Below, in pieces: positions 653-19,057 of a stretch of DNA of 20,201 nucleotides (position 1 is its first letter; each line of letters opens with the position of its first letter). The stretch is taken from positions 1 through 20,201 of IMG/VR virus record IMGVR_UViG_3300042475_002290; one strand, written 5' to 3'. Position numbers and translations under genes: made by a program. Below the pieces are notes generated by a model that searched no databases, was not told the DNA's origin, and worked only from the letters and a program-made list of their open reading frames with translations. Source of the stretch: a virus.

Positions 653-885
653 AGCTATTACCATTATTAGCATTATTACTTTTATTTAGCTGTAATCCAG
701 AACCAAAAGCAAAGTATTACATTACTGACAACTATGGTTATAGGTATTATACGGATGCAATAAAGGATAATGGTGATGGATGTATTTTTTTTACATCTAA
801 ACATGGTTATACAGAGGGTATGATCATTAAATTATGTGGGTATAATTCAATTATTGAAGATGGAAAGACAAGAAATACAAGATGA
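649..885 (+). CDS. Small predicted lipoprotein
   Basis: This 78-residue protein begins with a lysine and a long hydrophobic run (MKLLPLLALLLLFSC) ending in a lipobox-like LFSC at residues 12-15, followed by NPEPKAK. It should therefore be a signal peptidase II substrate anchored to a membrane by its cysteine. The mature part is about 60 residues, rich in Tyr and Gly (YYITDNYGYRYY), with two further Cys, and I do not recognise it. The start overlaps the stop of the previous gene (ATGA) and its 3' end overlaps the helicase gene by 26 bp. A surface lipoprotein in an early phage region could act in superinfection exclusion, but that is speculation; only the export signal is visible. Confidence 0.7.
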   Translation: MKLLPLLALLLLFSCNPEPKAKYYITDNYGYRYYTDAIKDNGDGCIFFTSKHGYTEGMIIKLCGYNSIIEDGKTRNTR

Positions 886-1954
886 AGCATTAAAGGCTAG
901 TGAGGGTAAACAAAGATGCACAATTGTACTTGGTACAGGTGTAGGTAAGACTCTTGTTGGCTTAAAGCATATGGAGAAACATTATTCTCCATTACAAAGT
1001 ATTTTGATTGTTGCCCCCAAACTGTCTATCATTAGCTCATGGAGATATGAAGCTGAGAAATTTGGATTAAGCAAAGTATTGGAAAATGCTAAGTTTACCA
1101 CTTATCTCAGCTTAAACAAACATAATCCTGGTGAATATGATGCAGTTTACTTTGATGAAGTTCACAGTTTATTAGATAGTCACAGATCTTTTCTTAATAA
1201 TTATGCAGGTAGAGTACTGGGTTTAACCGGTACTCCACCTAAGCATAAAACATCTGAGAAAGGTAGATTAGTATCTGAATATTGTCCAGTTGTCTATACT
1301 TTTAAGGCAGATGATGCAATAGAATCAGGTATTATCAATGATTATCAGATAATTGTGCATGAGATTAATCTTGATACTGCAAAGAACTATAAAGTATCAA
1401 CACAGAAAGGAAGTTTCCTTACATCTGAGTTGCAGAACTATGGTTATTGGGGTACAAGGATTGATACAGGATCAGGGCAACCTCATATACTTAGAGTAAT
1501 GAGAATGAAAGCTATGATGGAGTATCCAAGTAAAGAGAAATATGCAAAAGCTTTGTTAAACAGTATAACAAGCAAGTGTATTGTATTTGCTAATACCCAA
1601 GAACAAGCTGATAGAATGTGTACACATAGCTATCATAGTAATAATCAAGATTCTGAAGAGAATCTGCTTGATTTTAAAAATGGTAAGATAAATAAACTTT
1701 CATGTGTATTGCAATTAAATGAAGGTGTAAACATACCAGGTTTAAAACAAGGTATTATTATGCATGCATATGGTAATGAGCGTAAGGCTAGTCAAAGAAT
1801 AGGAAGACTTTTGCGTTTAAATCCAGATGACAAAGCTATTGTGCACATACTATGTTATGTAAACACAGTTGATGAGAAATGGGTCAAGGATGCTTTAGAA
1901 GACTTTAACCAAAGTAAAATAGTGTGGAGAAACTACAGTTTACAAACTACATAA
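860..1954 (+). CDS. SF2 DEAD/DEAH-box DNA helicase
   Basis: A 364-residue superfamily 2 helicase with both RecA-like domains. Numbered from the ATG at 860: Q-motif-like RQEIQDEAL at 3-10, Walker A GTGVGKT at 25-31, motif Ia VAPK near 51-54, Walker B FDEVH at 98-102, motif III LTGTPP at 122-127, motif IV CIVFANTQEQAD, motif V LNEGVNIPGL, and motif VI QRIGRLLR at 312-319. It should be an ATP-driven DNA translocase of the UvsW/RecG-like or restriction-helicase-like type, acting in replication restart, branch migration or recombination. I chose 860 rather than the upstream in-frame GTG at 836 because 860 is an ATG directly before the conserved RQE motif; it overlaps the lipoprotein gene by 26 bp. 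It is compact, with no extra domains. Confidence 0.9.
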   Translation: MERQEIQDEALKASEGKQRCTIVLGTGVGKTLVGLKHMEKHYSPLQSILIVAPKLSIISSWRYEAEKFGLSKVLENAKFTTYLSLNKHNPGEYDAVYFDEVHSLLDSHRSFLNNYAGRVLGLTGTPPKHKTSEKGRLVSEYCPVVYTFKADDAIESGIINDYQIIVHEINLDTAKNYKVSTQKGSFLTSELQNYGYWGTRIDTGSGQPHILRVMRMKAMMEYPSKEKYAKALLNSITSKCIVFANTQEQADRMCTHSYHSNNQDSEENLLDFKNGKINKLSCVLQLNEGVNIPGLKQGIIMHAYGNERKASQRIGRLLRLNPDDKAIVHILCYVNTVDEKWVKDALEDFNQSKIVWRNYSLQTT

Positions 1955-1970
1955 TTCTTATATTTAATAT

Positions 1971-2225
1971 ATGGAAGATGTTAAGACACATAAACTTATT
2001 TTGCATAATGACAAGAAAAACACATTTACATATGTAATGGCTTGTCTTATAAGATTTTGTGAGCACCATCCAACGCAGGCAGAGCAGTGTGCTTTGCTTG
2101 CACATGAGATGGGTAAATGCACTATAAAATCTGGAGATCTCTTACAAATGCTTGAGATTTCAGAATCTTTGCGTAATTTAGAGCTCAAAACATCAGTAGA
2201 ACAGTATGAGAGCAATATGCATTGA
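1971..2225 (+). CDS. clpS: ClpS-like ATP-dependent Clp protease adaptor
   Basis: The 84-residue protein aligns along its length with ClpS, the adaptor that delivers N-degron proteins to the ClpAP protease. Visible landmarks: the first strand and binding loop KLILHNDKKNTFTYVM (8-23), matching the Bacteroidota ClpS pattern L.L.NDxxNTFxxVI; the helix CEHHPTQAEQC (30-40), very typical of Bacteroidota ClpS; and AHEMGKC (44-50), whose His45 corresponds to the histidine that helps bind the substrate N-terminus in E. coli ClpS. The second Asp of the usual NDD is Lys15 here. It lies after the helicase gene and overlaps the next gene by 20 bp. The 16-bp spacer contains TATATTTA. It may redirect host Clp proteolysis or regulate phage protein turnover; the role is inferred. 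Confidence 0.82.
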   Translation: MEDVKTHKLILHNDKKNTFTYVMACLIRFCEHHPTQAEQCALLAHEMGKCTIKSGDLLQMLEISESLRNLELKTSVEQYESNMH

Positions 2226-2481
2226 TGCTTCAAATAGACCAAGTAAAGTGCCTGATAGTGAGTGGCTTATAGAAGGTGAAGTTTATACTATTACCAGAGT
2301 TGTTAGAATGGGATTGCAAGAAAATAAGTTTGGTGTGTTATTAAAGGAAGTTAAGTTATCTACTAGCTCTTTTCCTTATGAGCTATATGACGCAGAAAGA
2401 TTCTTACCAATTGATTTACTATCACAAGCATTTGAAGAAACTAAAGAAACAGTTAAAGAAGCTGATTTAGAACTAATTTAA
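2206..2481 (+). CDS. Small conserved phage protein, SH3-like appearance
   Basis: A 91-residue protein starting inside the end of the ClpS-like gene. The pattern (CIDASNRPSKVPDSEWLIEG, then GEVYTITRVVRM, then FGVLLKEVKL and FPYELYDAERFLP) is one I associate with small beta-rich proteins common in Bacteroidota phages: a Cys-containing first strand, an 'EGEVYTI' strand and a final 'F.Y..YDAERF.P' segment. This suggests a small SH3-like barrel, but the function is unknown. The acidic C-terminal tail (EETKETVKEADLEL) is probably unstructured. The overlap with the upstream gene implies co-translation. Alternative starts further in would remove the first conserved strand, so the ATG at 2206 is preferred. 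Confidence 0.7.
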   Translation: MRAICIDASNRPSKVPDSEWLIEGEVYTITRVVRMGLQENKFGVLLKEVKLSTSSFPYELYDAERFLPIDLLSQAFEETKETVKEADLELI

Positions 2482-3177: not shown

Positions 3178-3624
3178 ATGAAAAGTTTATTATTAAGTTT
3201 ATTATTAGTGGTATCAGGAACATGTATGTCACAGGTTAGAGTAGAACCCAAAGAGAAATCATACTTACATTTATTAACTGCAATTTATGAAATAATACCG
3301 TCAAGTGATGGTACTGCTACTTATTATTGTAGAATTCTAAGATATGGTTATGACTATCCAGCTATTCAACAAGGATATTTTCAGGTTACTATTTTTCAAA
3401 GAATAGATGGTTTAGTAAATTTTTATACTGAGCTGGCTAACTTAGAGAATAAGGAAGATGGAACATATCAATTATCTATGAAAGTACAAAGAGATGGTCA
3501 GTTATATGCCGTTAAAAAAGGTACTAAGATTAAATTAACATCTCAGTTGTATAAATATGAAAAATATAACATAGATGAAATTAAAACTGATTTAGAGTTA
3601 TTAAAATCAATGTTAAACCGATAA
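3178..3624 (+). CDS. Predicted secreted protein with signal peptide
   Basis: A 148-residue protein starting MKSLLLSLLLVVSGTCMSQ. This is a classic Bacteroidota signal peptide, with cleavage expected after Ser18 to leave Gln at +1. The mature 130 residues are predicted mostly beta (YLHLLTAIYEII, ATYYCRILRYGYD, GYFQVTIFQR, TYQLSMKVQRDGQLYAVKKGTKIKLTS), with a C-terminal helix (IDEIKTDLELLKSMLNR). No family is recognised. The start is supported by the leader of repeated A (AAAAAATG), shared with the next gene. Together with that gene and the RlpA-like gene it forms an exported-protein cluster. A cysteine inside the signal peptide (Cys16) lacks a good lipobox, so secretion rather than lipidation is favoured. 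Confidence 0.7.
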   Translation: MKSLLLSLLLVVSGTCMSQVRVEPKEKSYLHLLTAIYEIIPSSDGTATYYCRILRYGYDYPAIQQGYFQVTIFQRIDGLVNFYTELANLENKEDGTYQLSMKVQRDGQLYAVKKGTKIKLTSQLYKYEKYNIDEIKTDLELLKSMLNR

Positions 3625-3634
3625 AATTAAAAAA

Positions 3635-4093
3635 ATGAAAAAATTATTATTAGTCTTAGTAACAGTTACATTATTTACAACTACATCTTTTTCACAATGG
3701 ATAAGTAAAAAGATTGACAATGGATTTGATACTCCATATTACATAGCATATACACAAGATGGTCAAGATGCATATCTTAAATTAGAAAATTATAATGGAA
3801 TTGCATTCTATATGGGTGGAGTATACATCTGTGATGAATCTGTTAGTGTAGATATTTCTTTTCTAGTTAATGGAGAGTATCAAAAGTATACTACAACAGG
3901 TAATGTGTCTGAAAACCGTAAAACTGTATTTATGGTAGATGACCTTAATTCAGACCCAGAGTTTCTAGCTGATTTTAAAGCTGCTTCTGTTGTGAGAATT
4001 AGAGTTAATGACACTACTTGTGATACAGAAATCTATGAATTTAAAATGACAGGCAGTACAGCAGCCTTTAATACAGTGTCTAATCAAAAGTAA
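3635..4093 (+). CDS. Predicted secreted protein with signal peptide
   Basis: A 152-residue protein with the signal peptide MKKLLLVLVTVTLFTTTSFSQ, expected to be cut around Ser20/Gln21. The mature region contains many beta-strand stretches (YYIAYTQDGQDAYLKL, IAFYMGGVYICDE, VSVDISFLVNGEYQKY, VVRIRVNDTTCDTEIYEFKM). Two or three cysteines could form a disulfide outside the cytoplasm. It is not obviously homologous to the preceding secreted protein beyond the same layout. An A-rich leader (AAAAAATG) precedes it after an 10-bp spacer. The periplasmic or outer-surface role is unknown. Confidence 0.7.
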   Translation: MKKLLLVLVTVTLFTTTSFSQWISKKIDNGFDTPYYIAYTQDGQDAYLKLENYNGIAFYMGGVYICDESVSVDISFLVNGEYQKYTTTGNVSENRKTVFMVDDLNSDPEFLADFKAASVVRIRVNDTTCDTEIYEFKMTGSTAAFNTVSNQK

Positions 4094-4095
4094 TT

Positions 4096-4290
4096 GTGAA
4101 ACACTTTATTAAATATCTATTGGTATGGATAAGCCAAAACTTGTCCATACCATTTTGGATGGTAGGTCATATACATCTATCAGTAAATGTGTATGAAGAC
4201 ATCCATGAGATATTAATGTCATTTGGTATGAACCTCATAGTAGCTATAGGATTTACTATAGATTACTTAGAACAAAGAAAACAAAAATGA
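4096..4290 (+). CDS. Small two-helix membrane protein (GTG start)
   Basis: A 64-residue protein begun by GTG at 4096, two bases after the previous stop. It has a hydrophobic stretch at about 4-28 (containing LLVWISQNLSIPFWMVGHI) and a second at about 39-58 (ILMSFGMNLIVAIGFTIDYL), followed by a basic tail EQRKQK. Small size, two membrane segments and a charged tail directly upstream of a cell-wall-type gene fit a holin or another lysis or envelope helper, but no specific holin family is recognised. It overlaps the RlpA-like gene by 4 bp (ATGA), so the two are probably translated together. Confidence 0.6.
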   Translation: MKHFIKYLLVWISQNLSIPFWMVGHIHLSVNVYEDIHEILMSFGMNLIVAIGFTIDYLEQRKQK

Positions 4291-4652
4291 AAGTATTACT
4301 AATATTTGCCGTGTTGTTCAGCTTTGTAGATCCTAATCCTTTAGTTACTAAGGGAAGAGTAAGCTACTATGGACAACATTGGACAGGAAGATTAACTGCT
4401 TCCGGAGAAAGATTTCATGCAGATAGTTTAACATGTGCACACAAGACTTATAAATTTGGAACTCTTCTTAAAGTAACAGACTCAAGAAATGATTCTGTTA
4501 TATATGTGAAGGTAAATGATAGACTACCAAAGTCTTCTCATTTTATTGCAGATTTAAGTTATGGAGCTGCAAAAAAGTTAAACTTTTTGAAAGCTGGAGT
4601 TATTTATGTAACTTTAGAAGTTGTTGATACAGTGCAAATTAATAAAAAATAG
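4287..4652 (+). CDS. RlpA-like double-psi beta-barrel protein, exported
   Basis: A 121-residue protein with a short hydrophobic N-terminus (MKVLLIFAVLFSFVD) and an RlpA-type double-psi barrel: GRVSYYGQHWTGRLTASGERF (23-43), the TCAH/KFGT segment (49-59) matching TAAHxTLPFGT, KVNDRLP (75-81) matching VxINDRGP, and ADLSYGAAKKL (88-98) matching IDLSxxAA. Glu41 and His52 correspond to the residues reported as needed for lytic transglycosylase activity in Pseudomonas RlpA, and the NDR and DLS aspartates are kept. It may cleave denuded glycan strands and act in lysis or wall remodelling. It is much shorter than cellular RlpA and lacks the C-terminal SPOR domain. It is coupled by ATGA to the small membrane protein upstream. 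Confidence 0.85.
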   Translation: MKVLLIFAVLFSFVDPNPLVTKGRVSYYGQHWTGRLTASGERFHADSLTCAHKTYKFGTLLKVTDSRNDSVIYVKVNDRLPKSSHFIADLSYGAAKKLNFLKAGVIYVTLEVVDTVQINKK

Positions 4653-15665: not shown

Positions 15666-16090
15666 TGATTTTAACAAAAGATGAAGTAAGGAATCTGATT
15701 GGAATGCTAAGATCTCCAGACAAAGACAATAGACTTGTAGCTTTTAAGATAATAGAAGATCTAAATCTTAAAGAATATGTTGGAGAGATAATGGTAATGT
15801 ATAAATATGGTGAGTATAACTTGAGTAGTTGGGAACAAGACTGTAAACCTGCACATGAGTTTATAGTAGAGAGAATTGAGAAGTTCAATGGATATTGGGA
15901 AAGTAAACTAATCTCCGGAGAAATACTTGCACTAATGACAGCAAATAAATCTAGTAAACAATCAATAGAATTATTCTTAGAATATTTTATTAGAGACATG
16001 ACTAAGATATTAGATGCTATGGGGTATCCCACGGATAAATTTGAGTTAGATATAAAACTAAAACAAGATGGACAAACAACAGAGTCTTAG
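15665..16090 (+). CDS. Helical hypothetical protein sharing a motif with the 5858 gene
   Basis: A 141-residue protein of unknown function. Residues 3-33, which include DEVRNLIGMLRSPDKDN, match residues 121-151 of the protein at 5858-6439 (15 of 31 identical). The unit begins with a helix, has an acidic 'SxDxDN' turn and ends in a second helix, as in HEAT-like repeats. The remainder (VGEIMVMYKYGEYNLSSWEQD, FIVERIEKFNGYWESKLISGEILALMT) is helical. The 3' end overlaps the VWA gene by 23 bp. Confidence 0.62.
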   Translation: MILTKDEVRNLIGMLRSPDKDNRLVAFKIIEDLNLKEYVGEIMVMYKYGEYNLSSWEQDCKPAHEFIVERIEKFNGYWESKLISGEILALMTANKSSKQSIELFLEYFIRDMTKILDAMGYPTDKFELDIKLKQDGQTTES

Positions 16091-17246
16091 TAAAATTAGT
16101 AAAGAGCTGATGTTGAAAGAGCCCTATTATGGGTTCTTTCTCATTATGCTCAATAAAGTATGGAGAAAAGATCTTCCTACTGCAGGTGTTAGTAAGAATG
16201 GTATCAACTTTCAGTTGGCTATCAATGAAGAATTCTGGACAGGCCTCAGTGAGATGCATCAAATGGGATTACTAAAGCATGAATTACTTCATATAGCTTT
16301 TGGTCATCTGACAAGTTTTAAGTCTTTTAAGAATCATAGACTTGCAAACATAGCAATGGACATGGAAATCAACCAGTATATAGATAAAGACTGGTTGCCC
16401 AAGGGTGGAATAGATATAGATGACTATGAAGATTTAGATCTTGATAGGAAAGCTGGTTGTAGATATTACTATGACAAGCTGAATCAGTTTCAAGAAGAGA
16501 AGGATAAGAATGGTAGTTGTGGTAATGAGGATATGGATAAGTTACTTGATCAAGTAGCTAATGGAGAAGGACCAGACCACAGTACATGGGGAGAGTTTGA
16601 AGATCTTAGTGAAGCTGAGCAAAAGTTAATAGAGAAACAATTACAGAAAGTTTTATCTGATGCTAAAGAACAAACTGTTAAAAAGCGCGGGAATGTTCCA
16701 GGTGAGATAGAAGGAGTAATTGTTATTGAACAAATAGTAGCACCTAAGTTTGACTGGCGTGGATATATTAGAAGATTTACTGGAGTTAGTACAAAGGTAT
16801 TTACTAAGAAAATCCGTAGAAAAGAAAACAGAAGGTATGAAGAGAATCCAGGTCTGAAGATTAAAATGAGACAACACATGTTGTTAGCTATTGATACTTC
16901 AGGTTCTGTGAGTAATAATGAGCTACAAGAATTCATGGGTGAGATTCACCATATTTACAAAGCAGGTGTAGATGTAACTATAATGCAGTGTGATACTAGC
17001 ATTAGGTCTATTGAAGCCTACAAAGGTAAGAATGAAATAAATGTAGTAGGAAGAGGAGGAACAGAGTTTGATCCTGTCTTGGATTATTATAATGCTAACC
17101 AAAAGAAATATACTAGCCTGGTGTATTTTACTGACGGTGAGTGTTATACATCTGTAGTACCAAAAGGTAATGTCCTTTGGGTATTGTCAGAAAGATCAAG
17201 TATGAATGAAAGTTTACCAGGTAGAGTTATTAAATTAGAATTATAA
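16068..17246 (+). CDS. VWA-domain protein with metallopeptidase-like N-terminus
   Basis: A 392-residue protein with two parts. Residues ~1-215 resemble the metallopeptidase-like domain of DUF2201-type proteins, with HELLHIAFGH (71-80) giving an HExxH zinc motif plus a further His80. Residues ~268-392 are a VWA-like domain: MIDAS motif DTSGS (276-280), a GGTEF threonine (332) and YFTDGE (353-358). The middle is charged and contains a basic hinge (KKIRRKENRRYEEN). Proteins of this layout are paired with MoxR-type AAA+ ATPases in bacteria and phages, as here with the next gene. The pair is expected to work as a chaperone or remodelling system; the target is unknown. It starts inside the preceding gene. 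Confidence 0.88.
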   Translation: MDKQQSLSKISKELMLKEPYYGFFLIMLNKVWRKDLPTAGVSKNGINFQLAINEEFWTGLSEMHQMGLLKHELLHIAFGHLTSFKSFKNHRLANIAMDMEINQYIDKDWLPKGGIDIDDYEDLDLDRKAGCRYYYDKLNQFQEEKDKNGSCGNEDMDKLLDQVANGEGPDHSTWGEFEDLSEAEQKLIEKQLQKVLSDAKEQTVKKRGNVPGEIEGVIVIEQIVAPKFDWRGYIRRFTGVSTKVFTKKIRRKENRRYEENPGLKIKMRQHMLLAIDTSGSVSNNELQEFMGEIHHIYKAGVDVTIMQCDTSIRSIEAYKGKNEINVVGRGGTEFDPVLDYYNANQKKYTSLVYFTDGECYTSVVPKGNVLWVLSERSSMNESLPGRVIKLEL

Positions 17247-17251
17247 AAATT

Positions 17252-18421
17252 ATGAACACAGTACAATTAAACGTAGAAGAGTTAAAAGGATTTATCCGTC
17301 ACATGGTTAAGAATAACCAGCATATTCAAGCTGAAGGCAAAGTGCCTGTTGCAATTAACATAGAGGGTGATGCCGGTCTTGGTAAGACTTCTGCTATTAT
17401 GCAGTTGGGTAAAGAACTTGGTATGGATGTAGTAAAATTGAATCTATCTCAGATAGAGGAGCTAGGTGACCTTGTTGGTTTTCCTGTGAAAGAATTTTTA
17501 GTGCAAAATGCAGAAGGTAAACAAAGATGGATAACTGAAGCTCAGGTTCCAGCAGCCATGAATGCTAAGTATACTGTTGTAGATAAGAGAATGGCTCATG
17601 CTGCTCCTGAGTGGATTCAAGGTAAAGGTGAAGGTGGCTTCTTGGTATTGGATGATTATACTCGTGCAGACCATAGATTTATGCAAGCTACTATGGAGAT
17701 CTTAGATAGACAAGAATATGTTTCTTGGAAGCTACCTAAGAACTGGCATGTTATCTTGACCACTAATCCAGACAATGGTGACTATAATGTTACTAGCTTA
17801 GATGTTGCTCAGAAGACTAGATTTATTTCTGTGGAGATGAAGTATGATTCTGATGTATGGGCTAAGTGGGCAGAGAAAGCAGGGATAGATGGTAGATGTA
17901 TTAACTTTATGTTGATGCATCCTGAGCTTGTAACTCAAAGAGTTAATCCAAGGTCTATTACTACATTCTTTAATGCTATTAGTTCTATTCCTAAGTTTGA
18001 AGATGATCTACCTCTAATCCAAATGATTGGTGAAGGTTCTGTAGGAGCAGACTTTAGTTCTATGTTTACTATGTTTATCAATAATAAACTAGATAAGTTA
18101 ATTTCTCCTGAAGATATCTTGACTAAAGATAAAGATTATGTAATGGGAGCTCTGACAAATGCAGTTGGTAAAGGTGATGATTTTAGAGCAGATATCTCTA
18201 GTATTATTGCAACACGGGTAATTAACTATTCACTTGTTCAAGCTGATAAAGGTGCAATTGCTCCAACAGTAATTGACAGACTAGCAATTCTTACTACTGA
18301 ATGTGATGCATTTACAAATGACCTTAGATATTATATGGTCAAAGAGATAGTAAATGGAAACAAAGTTAAGTTTGCTGCTCTTATGAGAAACAATAATGTA
18401 GTCAAAATGGCAATACAGTAA
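17252..18421 (+). CDS. MoxR-type AAA+ ATPase
   Basis: A 389-residue AAA+ ATPase, 5 bp after its VWA partner. Walker A GDAGLGKT is at 39-46, Walker B FLVLDD at 130-135, sensor 1 ILTTNPDNGD at 168-177, and a conserved arginine near 190 (AQKTRF). A helical lid domain follows. The MoxR family drives maturation or disassembly of protein complexes together with VWA proteins. The final ten residues NNNVVKMAIQ are nearly identical to the last ten of the downstream HNH endonuclease, showing that the 3' end of this gene was copied or replaced when that gene arrived. Targeting by a mobile nuclease suggests the gene is conserved across related phages. Confidence 0.9.
   Translation: MNTVQLNVEELKGFIRHMVKNNQHIQAEGKVPVAINIEGDAGLGKTSAIMQLGKELGMDVVKLNLSQIEELGDLVGFPVKEFLVQNAEGKQRWITEAQVPAAMNAKYTVVDKRMAHAAPEWIQGKGEGGFLVLDDYTRADHRFMQATMEILDRQEYVSWKLPKNWHVILTTNPDNGDYNVTSLDVAQKTRFISVEMKYDSDVWAKWAEKAGIDGRCINFMLMHPELVTQRVNPRSITTFFNAISSIPKFEDDLPLIQMIGEGSVGADFSSMFTMFINNKLDKLISPEDILTKDKDYVMGALTNAVGKGDDFRADISSIIATRVINYSLVQADKGAIAPTVIDRLAILTTECDAFTNDLRYYMVKEIVNGNKVKFAALMRNNNVVKMAIQ
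18389..18421 (+). repeat. Upstream copy of the MoxR 3'-end repeat
   Basis: The last 11 codons of the MoxR gene (NNNVVKMAIQ plus stop). It matches 19025-19057 at 25 of 33 bases. Six differences are synonymous third-base changes and one codon (AAT to ACG) changes Asn to Thr. The two copies are exactly 636 bp, or 212 codons, apart. Confidence 0.9.
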
Positions 18422-18439
18422 ATAATATTTATATTATAA

Positions 18440-18484
18440 ATGGTAACAAAATTAATTGTATATTTACAACAAAAAGTTACCATG
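18440..18484 (+). promoter_or_regulatory. Hairpin enclosing the HNH start codon
   Basis: A perfect 8-bp inverted repeat, ATGGTAAC (18440-18447) with GTTACCAT (18476-18483), has a 28-base loop. The 3' arm contains the first two bases of the chosen HNH start ATG (18482-18484), so in a read-through transcript the start would be paired. The loop holds TATATTTA (18459-18466), one mismatch from the Bacteroidota -7 element TAnnTTTG. A transcript starting there would lack the 5' arm. This is a reading of the sequence; no promoter is proven. Confidence 0.55.
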
Positions 18485-19057
18485 GAAAATATTAAGTGTA
18501 CAAGATGTAAGTTGGAAAAGAATATATCTGAGTTTTATAAGTCAAAGAGACATAAGCTCGGATATATTCCAACTTGTAAGGAATGTGAATCTATTAGACA
18601 TTCCTCTAATTATAAACCAAGTGCAAGACAGAAAAAATATGAAGATAACAAAGAGAAATATCTTTTGAGTGTAAAAAGGTATGCTGAAAAAAACAAGGAC
18701 AAAATAAAACAGCAACAAAGGAATTATTATTTAAATAATAAACTAAGATTTCTTGAAGCTGGTTGGAAGAAAAAAGGTATTTTAAATAAGGATTTAGAGT
18801 TTTTTAGAAAAAAAGATTTTGATGAACTATTTGAAAAAGCGGGTATGGTTTGTCAAATATGTGGAGAATCAGTTATTAAACATAAAAAAGGATTTGTTGT
18901 TGATCACTGTCATGCAACGGGTATTGCAAGGGGAATATTATGCGCACATTGTAATGTAGCACTTGGTAGTTTTAAAGATAATATAGAAATTATAAAAAAT
19001 GCTATTAATTATCTGGATATGCAGAATACGAATGTGGTGAAGATGGCTATCCAGTAA
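18482..19057 (+). CDS. HNH endonuclease, endonuclease VII type, probable homing endonuclease
   Basis: A 191-residue free-standing HNH nuclease. The N-terminal zinc ribbon has Cys6, Cys9, Cys32 and Cys35 (CTRC ... CKEC). A lysine-rich helical linker follows (NKEKYLLSVKRYAEKNKDKIKQQQ). The C-terminal endonuclease VII domain has VCQIC (123-127), VVDHCHATGIARG (139-149) with the catalytic DHCH, and LCAHCN (153-158). Its last ten residues (NTNVVKMAIQ) duplicate the end of the MoxR protein upstream. I chose 18482 over the in-frame ATG at 18440 because related proteins start just before the first zinc Cys pair and the longer form begins in a hairpin arm. It lies between the MoxR gene and a terminator-like hairpin and probably spreads by homing into the MoxR gene. 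Confidence 0.88.
   Translation: MENIKCTRCKLEKNISEFYKSKRHKLGYIPTCKECESIRHSSNYKPSARQKKYEDNKEKYLLSVKRYAEKNKDKIKQQQRNYYLNNKLRFLEAGWKKKGILNKDLEFFRKKDFDELFEKAGMVCQICGESVIKHKKGFVVDHCHATGIARGILCAHCNVALGSFKDNIEIIKNAINYLDMQNTNVVKMAIQ
19025..19057 (+). repeat. Downstream copy of the MoxR 3'-end repeat (end of HNH gene)
   Basis: The last 11 codons of the HNH gene (NTNVVKMAIQ plus stop), the partner of 18389-18421. It directly precedes the hairpin at 19061, which would naturally end the MoxR operon. This suggests that the downstream copy is the original 3' end and the upstream copy is the replacement, though the reverse is possible. Confidence 0.9.

Follow-up and report, generated by a model that had tools for sequence, protein, structure and literature searches.

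A ClpS-like protein without the N-terminal extension is a fixed gene in a group of crAss-like phages

Introduction

What might a phage do with a ClpS protein when neither ClpA nor ClpP is encoded beside it? This question is raised by a small open reading frame in a viral sequence from IMG/VR (record IMGVR_UViG_3300042475_002290, positions 1 to 20,201); the whole stretch of 20,201 nt that was analysed is referred to here as the window. The preliminary description of this DNA had proposed a phage-encoded ClpS-type N-degron adaptor that would act through the host protease, either steering proteolysis towards host or defence proteins or protecting phage proteins. Phage ClpS as such is already known from jumbo phages (PMC7824862), and the form described here is a variant of it. 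In the literature searched, mentions of phage ClpS were confined to jumbo phages, where it is presumed to assist host ClpAP or Clp proteins, and a search for ClpS together with crAss-like phages found no paper.

Results

The clpS-like reading frame (Table 1) starts with an ATG codon and encodes a protein that begins MEDVKTHK. Residues 5-68 matched the Pfam ClpS profile PF02617 with 48.3 bits, above the curated cut-off of 23, and the family profile search found ClpS together with the N-domains of UBR1 and UBR2. The NCBIfam ClpS equivalog models gave at best 24.5 bits against a cut-off of 107, and because these scores lie far under the cut-offs the phage protein is regarded as a divergent member of the family. 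A single-sequence search of PDB sequences with the phage protein gave no significant match. The AF2 model (pLDDT 93) predicts a confident ClpS fold; the best 38 PDB chains found with this model by Foldseek were all of the ClpS family (38/38), and VIA Z reached its highest value, 15.8, with plant ClpS1, values of 14.3 and 14.2 being obtained with E. coli ClpS bound to a Phe peptide and with Caulobacter ClpS. The helix motif CEHHPTQAEQC (residues 30-40) and His45, on which the preliminary description had based its assignment, are both present, and the profile comparison and structure prediction that it had named as checks both agree with ClpS. By profile and fold, the 84-aa protein is thus confirmed as a genuine member of the ClpS family, and it is a ClpS by descent as well as by fold.

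Table 1. Features of the clpS-like locus, with positions in the window.
Feature	Position	Strand	Basis
Helicase of superfamily 2 (ResIII / Helicase_C), immediately upstream of clpS	836..1954	+	88/89 loci
In-frame TAA two codons before ATG	1965..1967	+	Sequence; open frame from 1968
clpS-like gene encoding 84 aa; ClpS core that lacks the N-terminal extension	1971..2225	+	Pfam ClpS 8.7e-13, AF2 model, Foldseek/VIA
Asn13-Asp14-Lys15; Lys15 at the position of Caulobacter Asp49 / E. coli Asp36	2007..2015	+	Alignment; contacts from PMC12493166
His45, equivalent of E. coli His66, invariant	2103..2105	+	Alignment
Helix alpha-3, residues 57-69; Leu58 and Leu61 align with Glu79 and Glu82	2139..2177	+	Model, alignment; PMC12493166
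Overlap of clpS 3' end and next-gene start	2206..2225	+	dS drop, dN/dS about 1 over codons 78-84
Next gene, 91 aa, directly downstream of clpS	2206..2481	+	89/89 loci

Relatives of the phage ClpS were found at 37 loci with the single protein as query and on at least 527 viral contigs with an alignment as query, and many of the contigs encoding them are 85-123 kb in length. The uncultured phage cr1_1 (Crassvirales, Culoivirus) served as the reference for crAss kinship. In tblastn comparisons of cr1_1 proteins with two of the related contigs (G002 and G011), matches were obtained for the terminase (1e-44), portal (1e-28 to 1e-31), DNA polymerase (1e-41), primase (1e-27) and giant RNA polymerase (1e-17 and 1e-10); the terminase profile PF03237 gave no match, and the crAss terminase came from this direct comparison. 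Since these five proteins are homologous, the group is crAss-like, and the terminase, portal and two polymerases in near relatives bear out the earlier claim that the gene is phage-encoded. The window itself shares helicase, primase and AAA genes with cr1_1. In a quick tree, the 52 crAss-like ClpS sequences were separated from the others by a branch with SH-aLRT support of 99%. A tblastn search of the phage collection found ClpS in jumbo or huge phages and in one weak, unrelated record, and in no named crAss-like phage. Cellular matches to the phage ClpS were to Bacteroidota in 17 of 18 cases, which together with the crAss-like kinship points to a Bacteroidota host, and metagenome numbers suggest a freshwater habitat. 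The gene for ClpS is fixed in this large group of apparently freshwater crAss-like phages.

The 91-aa protein encoded after clpS is small and beta-rich, with a C-terminal helix, and is weakly SH3-like. In some relatives a GIY-YIG endonuclease-like frame, recognised by eye, lies behind clpS (in L008 from 1756, in L091 from 5460 and in L093 from 6253), the site of insertion being directly after clpS and past the first codons of the 91-aa gene. Elsewhere in the window, the region 2487-2975 encodes a DnaA-C-like helix-turn-helix (Bac_DnaA_C 1.3e-05, below the cut-off), which was matched in 21 of 89 related loci. Small ORFs in 649-885, 3178-4093 and 4287-4652 have signal-peptide-like or lipoprotein-like N-termini, and the last of these resembles, by eye, an RlpA-type domain. 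A DUF2201 putative metallopeptidase/VWA gene adjoins a MoxR-like AAA ATPase gene (16068-18421). The AAA ATPase gene at 17252-18421 ends in NNNVVKMAIQ, and an endonuclease VII (HNH) gene at 18440-19057 ends almost identically in NTNVVKMAIQ, with different codons; this arrangement suggests that the HNH gene is a homing element which entered the ATPase gene close to its 3' end and brought a recoded copy of that end with it.

The reading frame of clpS is under purifying selection, with a mean dN/dS of about 0.23 over codons 1-77, and its length, start and position were near-constant in the 89 loci examined. This selection and the constant synteny indicate a functional protein. The divergence from the NCBIfam equivalog models could be taken to mean that the ORF arose by chance or that a captured host gene is decaying here; the conservation data refute this reading and leave it a probability close to nil. 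Over codons 78-84, dS fell from 0.97 to 0.28 and dN/dS rose to about 1. The encoded tail, YESNMH, is conserved yet has low pLDDT in the AF2 model. It was considered as a functional motif and rejected, since synonymous changes are suppressed here and the tail codes in another frame for the start of the next gene, which is itself conserved (MRAICIDASN, MKVICIDSSN). The C-terminal tail is therefore conserved because the end of clpS overlaps the next gene.

Delivery of substrates by E. coli ClpS involves a disordered extension, residues 1-25, ahead of the core (PMC12493166). The pore loops of ClpA engage this extension and delivery stops when it is blocked; with ClpA mutants unable to remodel ClpS, added ClpS hinders degradation of N-degron substrates (PMC9663308). 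Truncation of the extension abolished the degradation of ClpS in vivo and stabilised it (PMC12974527). The phage ClpS lacks the extension of an N-degron adaptor. The equivalent of E. coli Asn34 is preceded by only 12 residues in almost every distinct phage sequence and by 11 in L076, as against 33 in E. coli and 24-36, with a median of 26, in 35 Bacteroidota ClpS proteins scored from their likely ATG starts. By VIA superposition, residue 1 of the model aligns with E. coli residue 22-23, so about four residues stand ahead of the core, and the prolines of the junction are missing. A longer ClpS from an upstream start was considered and is excluded in the window by the in-frame TAA. The ATG 12 codons ahead of the Asn is kept in almost all relatives; because some (for example L022, L028, L066, L089 and L097) have upstream TTG or ATG codons in frame, the statement that the extension is missing applies to this conserved start. 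The need for the extension in delivery is established for E. coli ClpAP and may hold for the ClpC-type unfoldases of Bacteroidota. A direct test of truncated ClpS was reportedly made by Hou and colleagues in 2008.

The docking face of the protein also departs from that of cellular ClpS. Glu79, Glu82 and Lys84 of E. coli ClpS contact ClpA (PMC12493166), and in an ungapped register with an offset of 21, consistent with a helix that begins at residue 57 in the model, their phage equivalents are positions 58, 61 and 63. Position 58 was strongly hydrophobic in 47 of the 52 phage sequences and in none of 39 host sequences, and position 61 in 52/52 and 1/39, respectively; position 63 was hydrophobic in most sequences of both groups. 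Helix alpha-3 of the window's protein thus has leucines in place of both glutamates. Judging from their charge in hosts, positions 58 and 61 probably lie at the surface. Such a change could mean that the protein is a reader of N-termini whose hydrophobic helix docks on itself or on a partner from the phage, such as the helicase or the 91-aa protein encoded alongside, outside the Clp pathway. The sharp division between phage and host at the two positions and the constancy of the neighbours (88/89 loci for the helicase, 89/89 for the 91-aa gene) agree with re-targeting of this kind; a shared operon would, however, also give conserved gene order, and the link to Clp may be retained, so that we consider re-targeting somewhat unlikely.

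In the substrate pocket of Caulobacter ClpS, the alpha-amino group is contacted by Asn47, Asp49 and His79 (PMC12493166), corresponding in the phage protein to Asn13, position 15 and His45. No exception to Asn13, Asp14 or His45 was seen among the 39 host and 52 distinct phage sequences. At position 15, the host residue was Asp in 37 sequences, Glu in 1 and Ser in 1; among the phages it was Asp in 37, Lys in 7, Ser in 3, Asn in 3, Glu in 1 and His in 1. The protein of the window has Lys at this Asn+2 position, which breaks the set of Asn, Asp and His and argues against normal N-degron binding by this particular ClpS. When the tree was built with this column left out, the phage clade required no fewer than nine switches between Asp and another residue, a count that is approximate because the tree has few columns. 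Replacement of the acidic residue by Lys, Ser, Asn or His might instead have given the pocket another N-terminal signal to recognise, with a preference for blocked or acidic N-termini. The repeated change at Asn+2 would suit this, and Leptospira ClpS1 has a natural His to Asp exchange at an alpha-amino contact (PMC12493166). Asp is nevertheless kept in 37 of the 52 phage sequences, so that one altered preference would not account for all members of the clade, and this alternative appears quite improbable. We propose rather that in most of the family the ClpS core may still be able to read N-terminal residues.

No match to the ClpP, Clp_N or AAA_2 families was found in 14 related crAss-like contigs of 84-123 kb, perhaps incomplete, in agreement with the earlier statement that the window encodes neither ClpA nor ClpP; the peptide deformylase family likewise had no match in these contigs. 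Since no ClpA or ClpP family match is encoded alongside it, the phage ClpS must act on the host system or on something else. Of 296 Bacteroidota genomes, 284 have a ClpS of their own, so a phage copy capable of delivery would mostly duplicate an activity already present. The ClpA profile gave long matches, in reading frames of about 840-890 aa, in six of seven Bacteroidota genomes and fragments only in the seventh; the long matches were all under the curated cut-off, and ClpA, ClpC and ClpB are not told apart by them.

Discussion

One role for the protein would be that of a true adaptor, which binds the Clp unfoldase of the host and passes chosen N-degron proteins, from the host or its defences, to the host protease. 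Membership of the ClpS family by profile and fold, the invariant Asn, Asp and His of the pocket and the presence in Bacteroidota of ClpS and large ClpA/C-like unfoldases all accord with such a role, and the same idea has been published for the ClpS of several jumbo phages, proposed to bring targets to host ClpAP (Iyer et al. 2021, PMC7824862). Against it are the missing extension, the change of the docking positions from charged to hydrophobic and the change, at least nine times in the clade, at the Asp that contacts the alpha-amino group, which is Lys in the window. Delivery by a true adaptor is on these grounds unlikely, and the steering of substrates into the host protease put forward in the preliminary description is doubtful. 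It had not remarked on the missing extension, on Lys at the alpha-amino-binding position or on the hydrophobic docking helix. Its finding of a phage-encoded ClpS with no co-encoded ClpA or ClpP match stands, and the other half of its interpretation, the protection of phage proteins, fits better than steering.

A non-delivering role is favoured because the phage protein has neither of two features used by a delivering adaptor, the extension and charged docking contacts, and because the window's protein has also lost the acidic contact of the pocket. As judged from sequence and model, the phage protein may be a ClpS core that acts as a decoy on the host unfoldase or as a shield of N-degron proteins; we hold this explanation tentatively, at something less than an even chance. 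During infection, the phage ClpS would bind the N-domain of the host Clp unfoldase, N-degron proteins, or both. With no extension on which the unfoldase could pull, the bound partner would then be held and not passed on. A decoy of this kind would antagonise the host ClpS and N-degron pathway, sparing phage or host proteins, and would supply no new substrates to the protease. On the other side, docking to the host unfoldase could be lost through the very substitutions at positions 58 and 61, and Lys15 speaks against ordinary N-degron binding by the window's protein.

In its more far-reaching form, a non-delivering core would amount to a viral dominant-negative N-recognin, in which a ClpS without its extension and with a re-made docking face switches off or diverts the host N-degron pathway; this is possible, though clearly short of probable. 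Were the pathway blocked in this way, N-degron proteolysis would matter during infection of Bacteroidota, and the protein would provide a natural dominant-negative tool for the pathway. The functions of the N-terminal extension and of helix alpha-3 could also be tested simply with the phage ClpS.

Comparison with known systems

The chromosomal ClpS of Bacteroidota (PF02617) shares with the phage protein the fold, the Asn-Asp...His pocket and the CEH/QAEQC helices, at 36-46% identity among the matches listed. The phage form differs in its lack of the extension, its hydrophobic docking positions, the variable residue at Asn+2 and the additional tail forced by the gene overlap. Eukaryotic UBR ligases contain an N-domain of the same fold, with a profile match to UBR1 and UBR2; there, in contrast, the ClpS-like domain lies within a ubiquitin ligase and no Clp protease is involved. 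In the uncultured phages cr50_1 and cr126_1 (BFVD), proteins like the bL12 C-terminal domain have a fold that resembles ClpS, and no sequence link between them and the phage clpS was seen.

Anti-adaptors of Clp include MgtC and acetylated HspQ (PMC7966870). The phage protein might resemble these in outcome, in that less ClpS-dependent degradation would result. To our knowledge, neither is a ClpS homologue.

Among phages, ClpS has been noted in the literature or databases for the jumbo phages PA5oct, Atu_ph07 and RaK2 (PMC7824862, PMC6102473), in Atu_ph07 along with other Clp proteins (PMC6102473). The PA5oct protein is only weakly similar (28%), has 26 residues before the Asn and is encoded near a ClpX-like gene. 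Closer are the ClpS proteins of three uncultured phages of 635-642 kb (LR745206, LR756502 and LR756504), which have a Bacteroidota-like core with about 39-40% identity to the crAss-like form and occupy separate positions in the tree. Unlike the crAss-like proteins, they keep the extension, with 26-29 residues before the Asn, and have host-like residues at positions 58 and 61. The same phages encode two or three ClpP proteins and an AAA_2 unfoldase, families without a match in the crAss-like group, and this pairing of a complete ClpS with Clp partners of its own counts in favour of a decoy role for the crAss-like protein.
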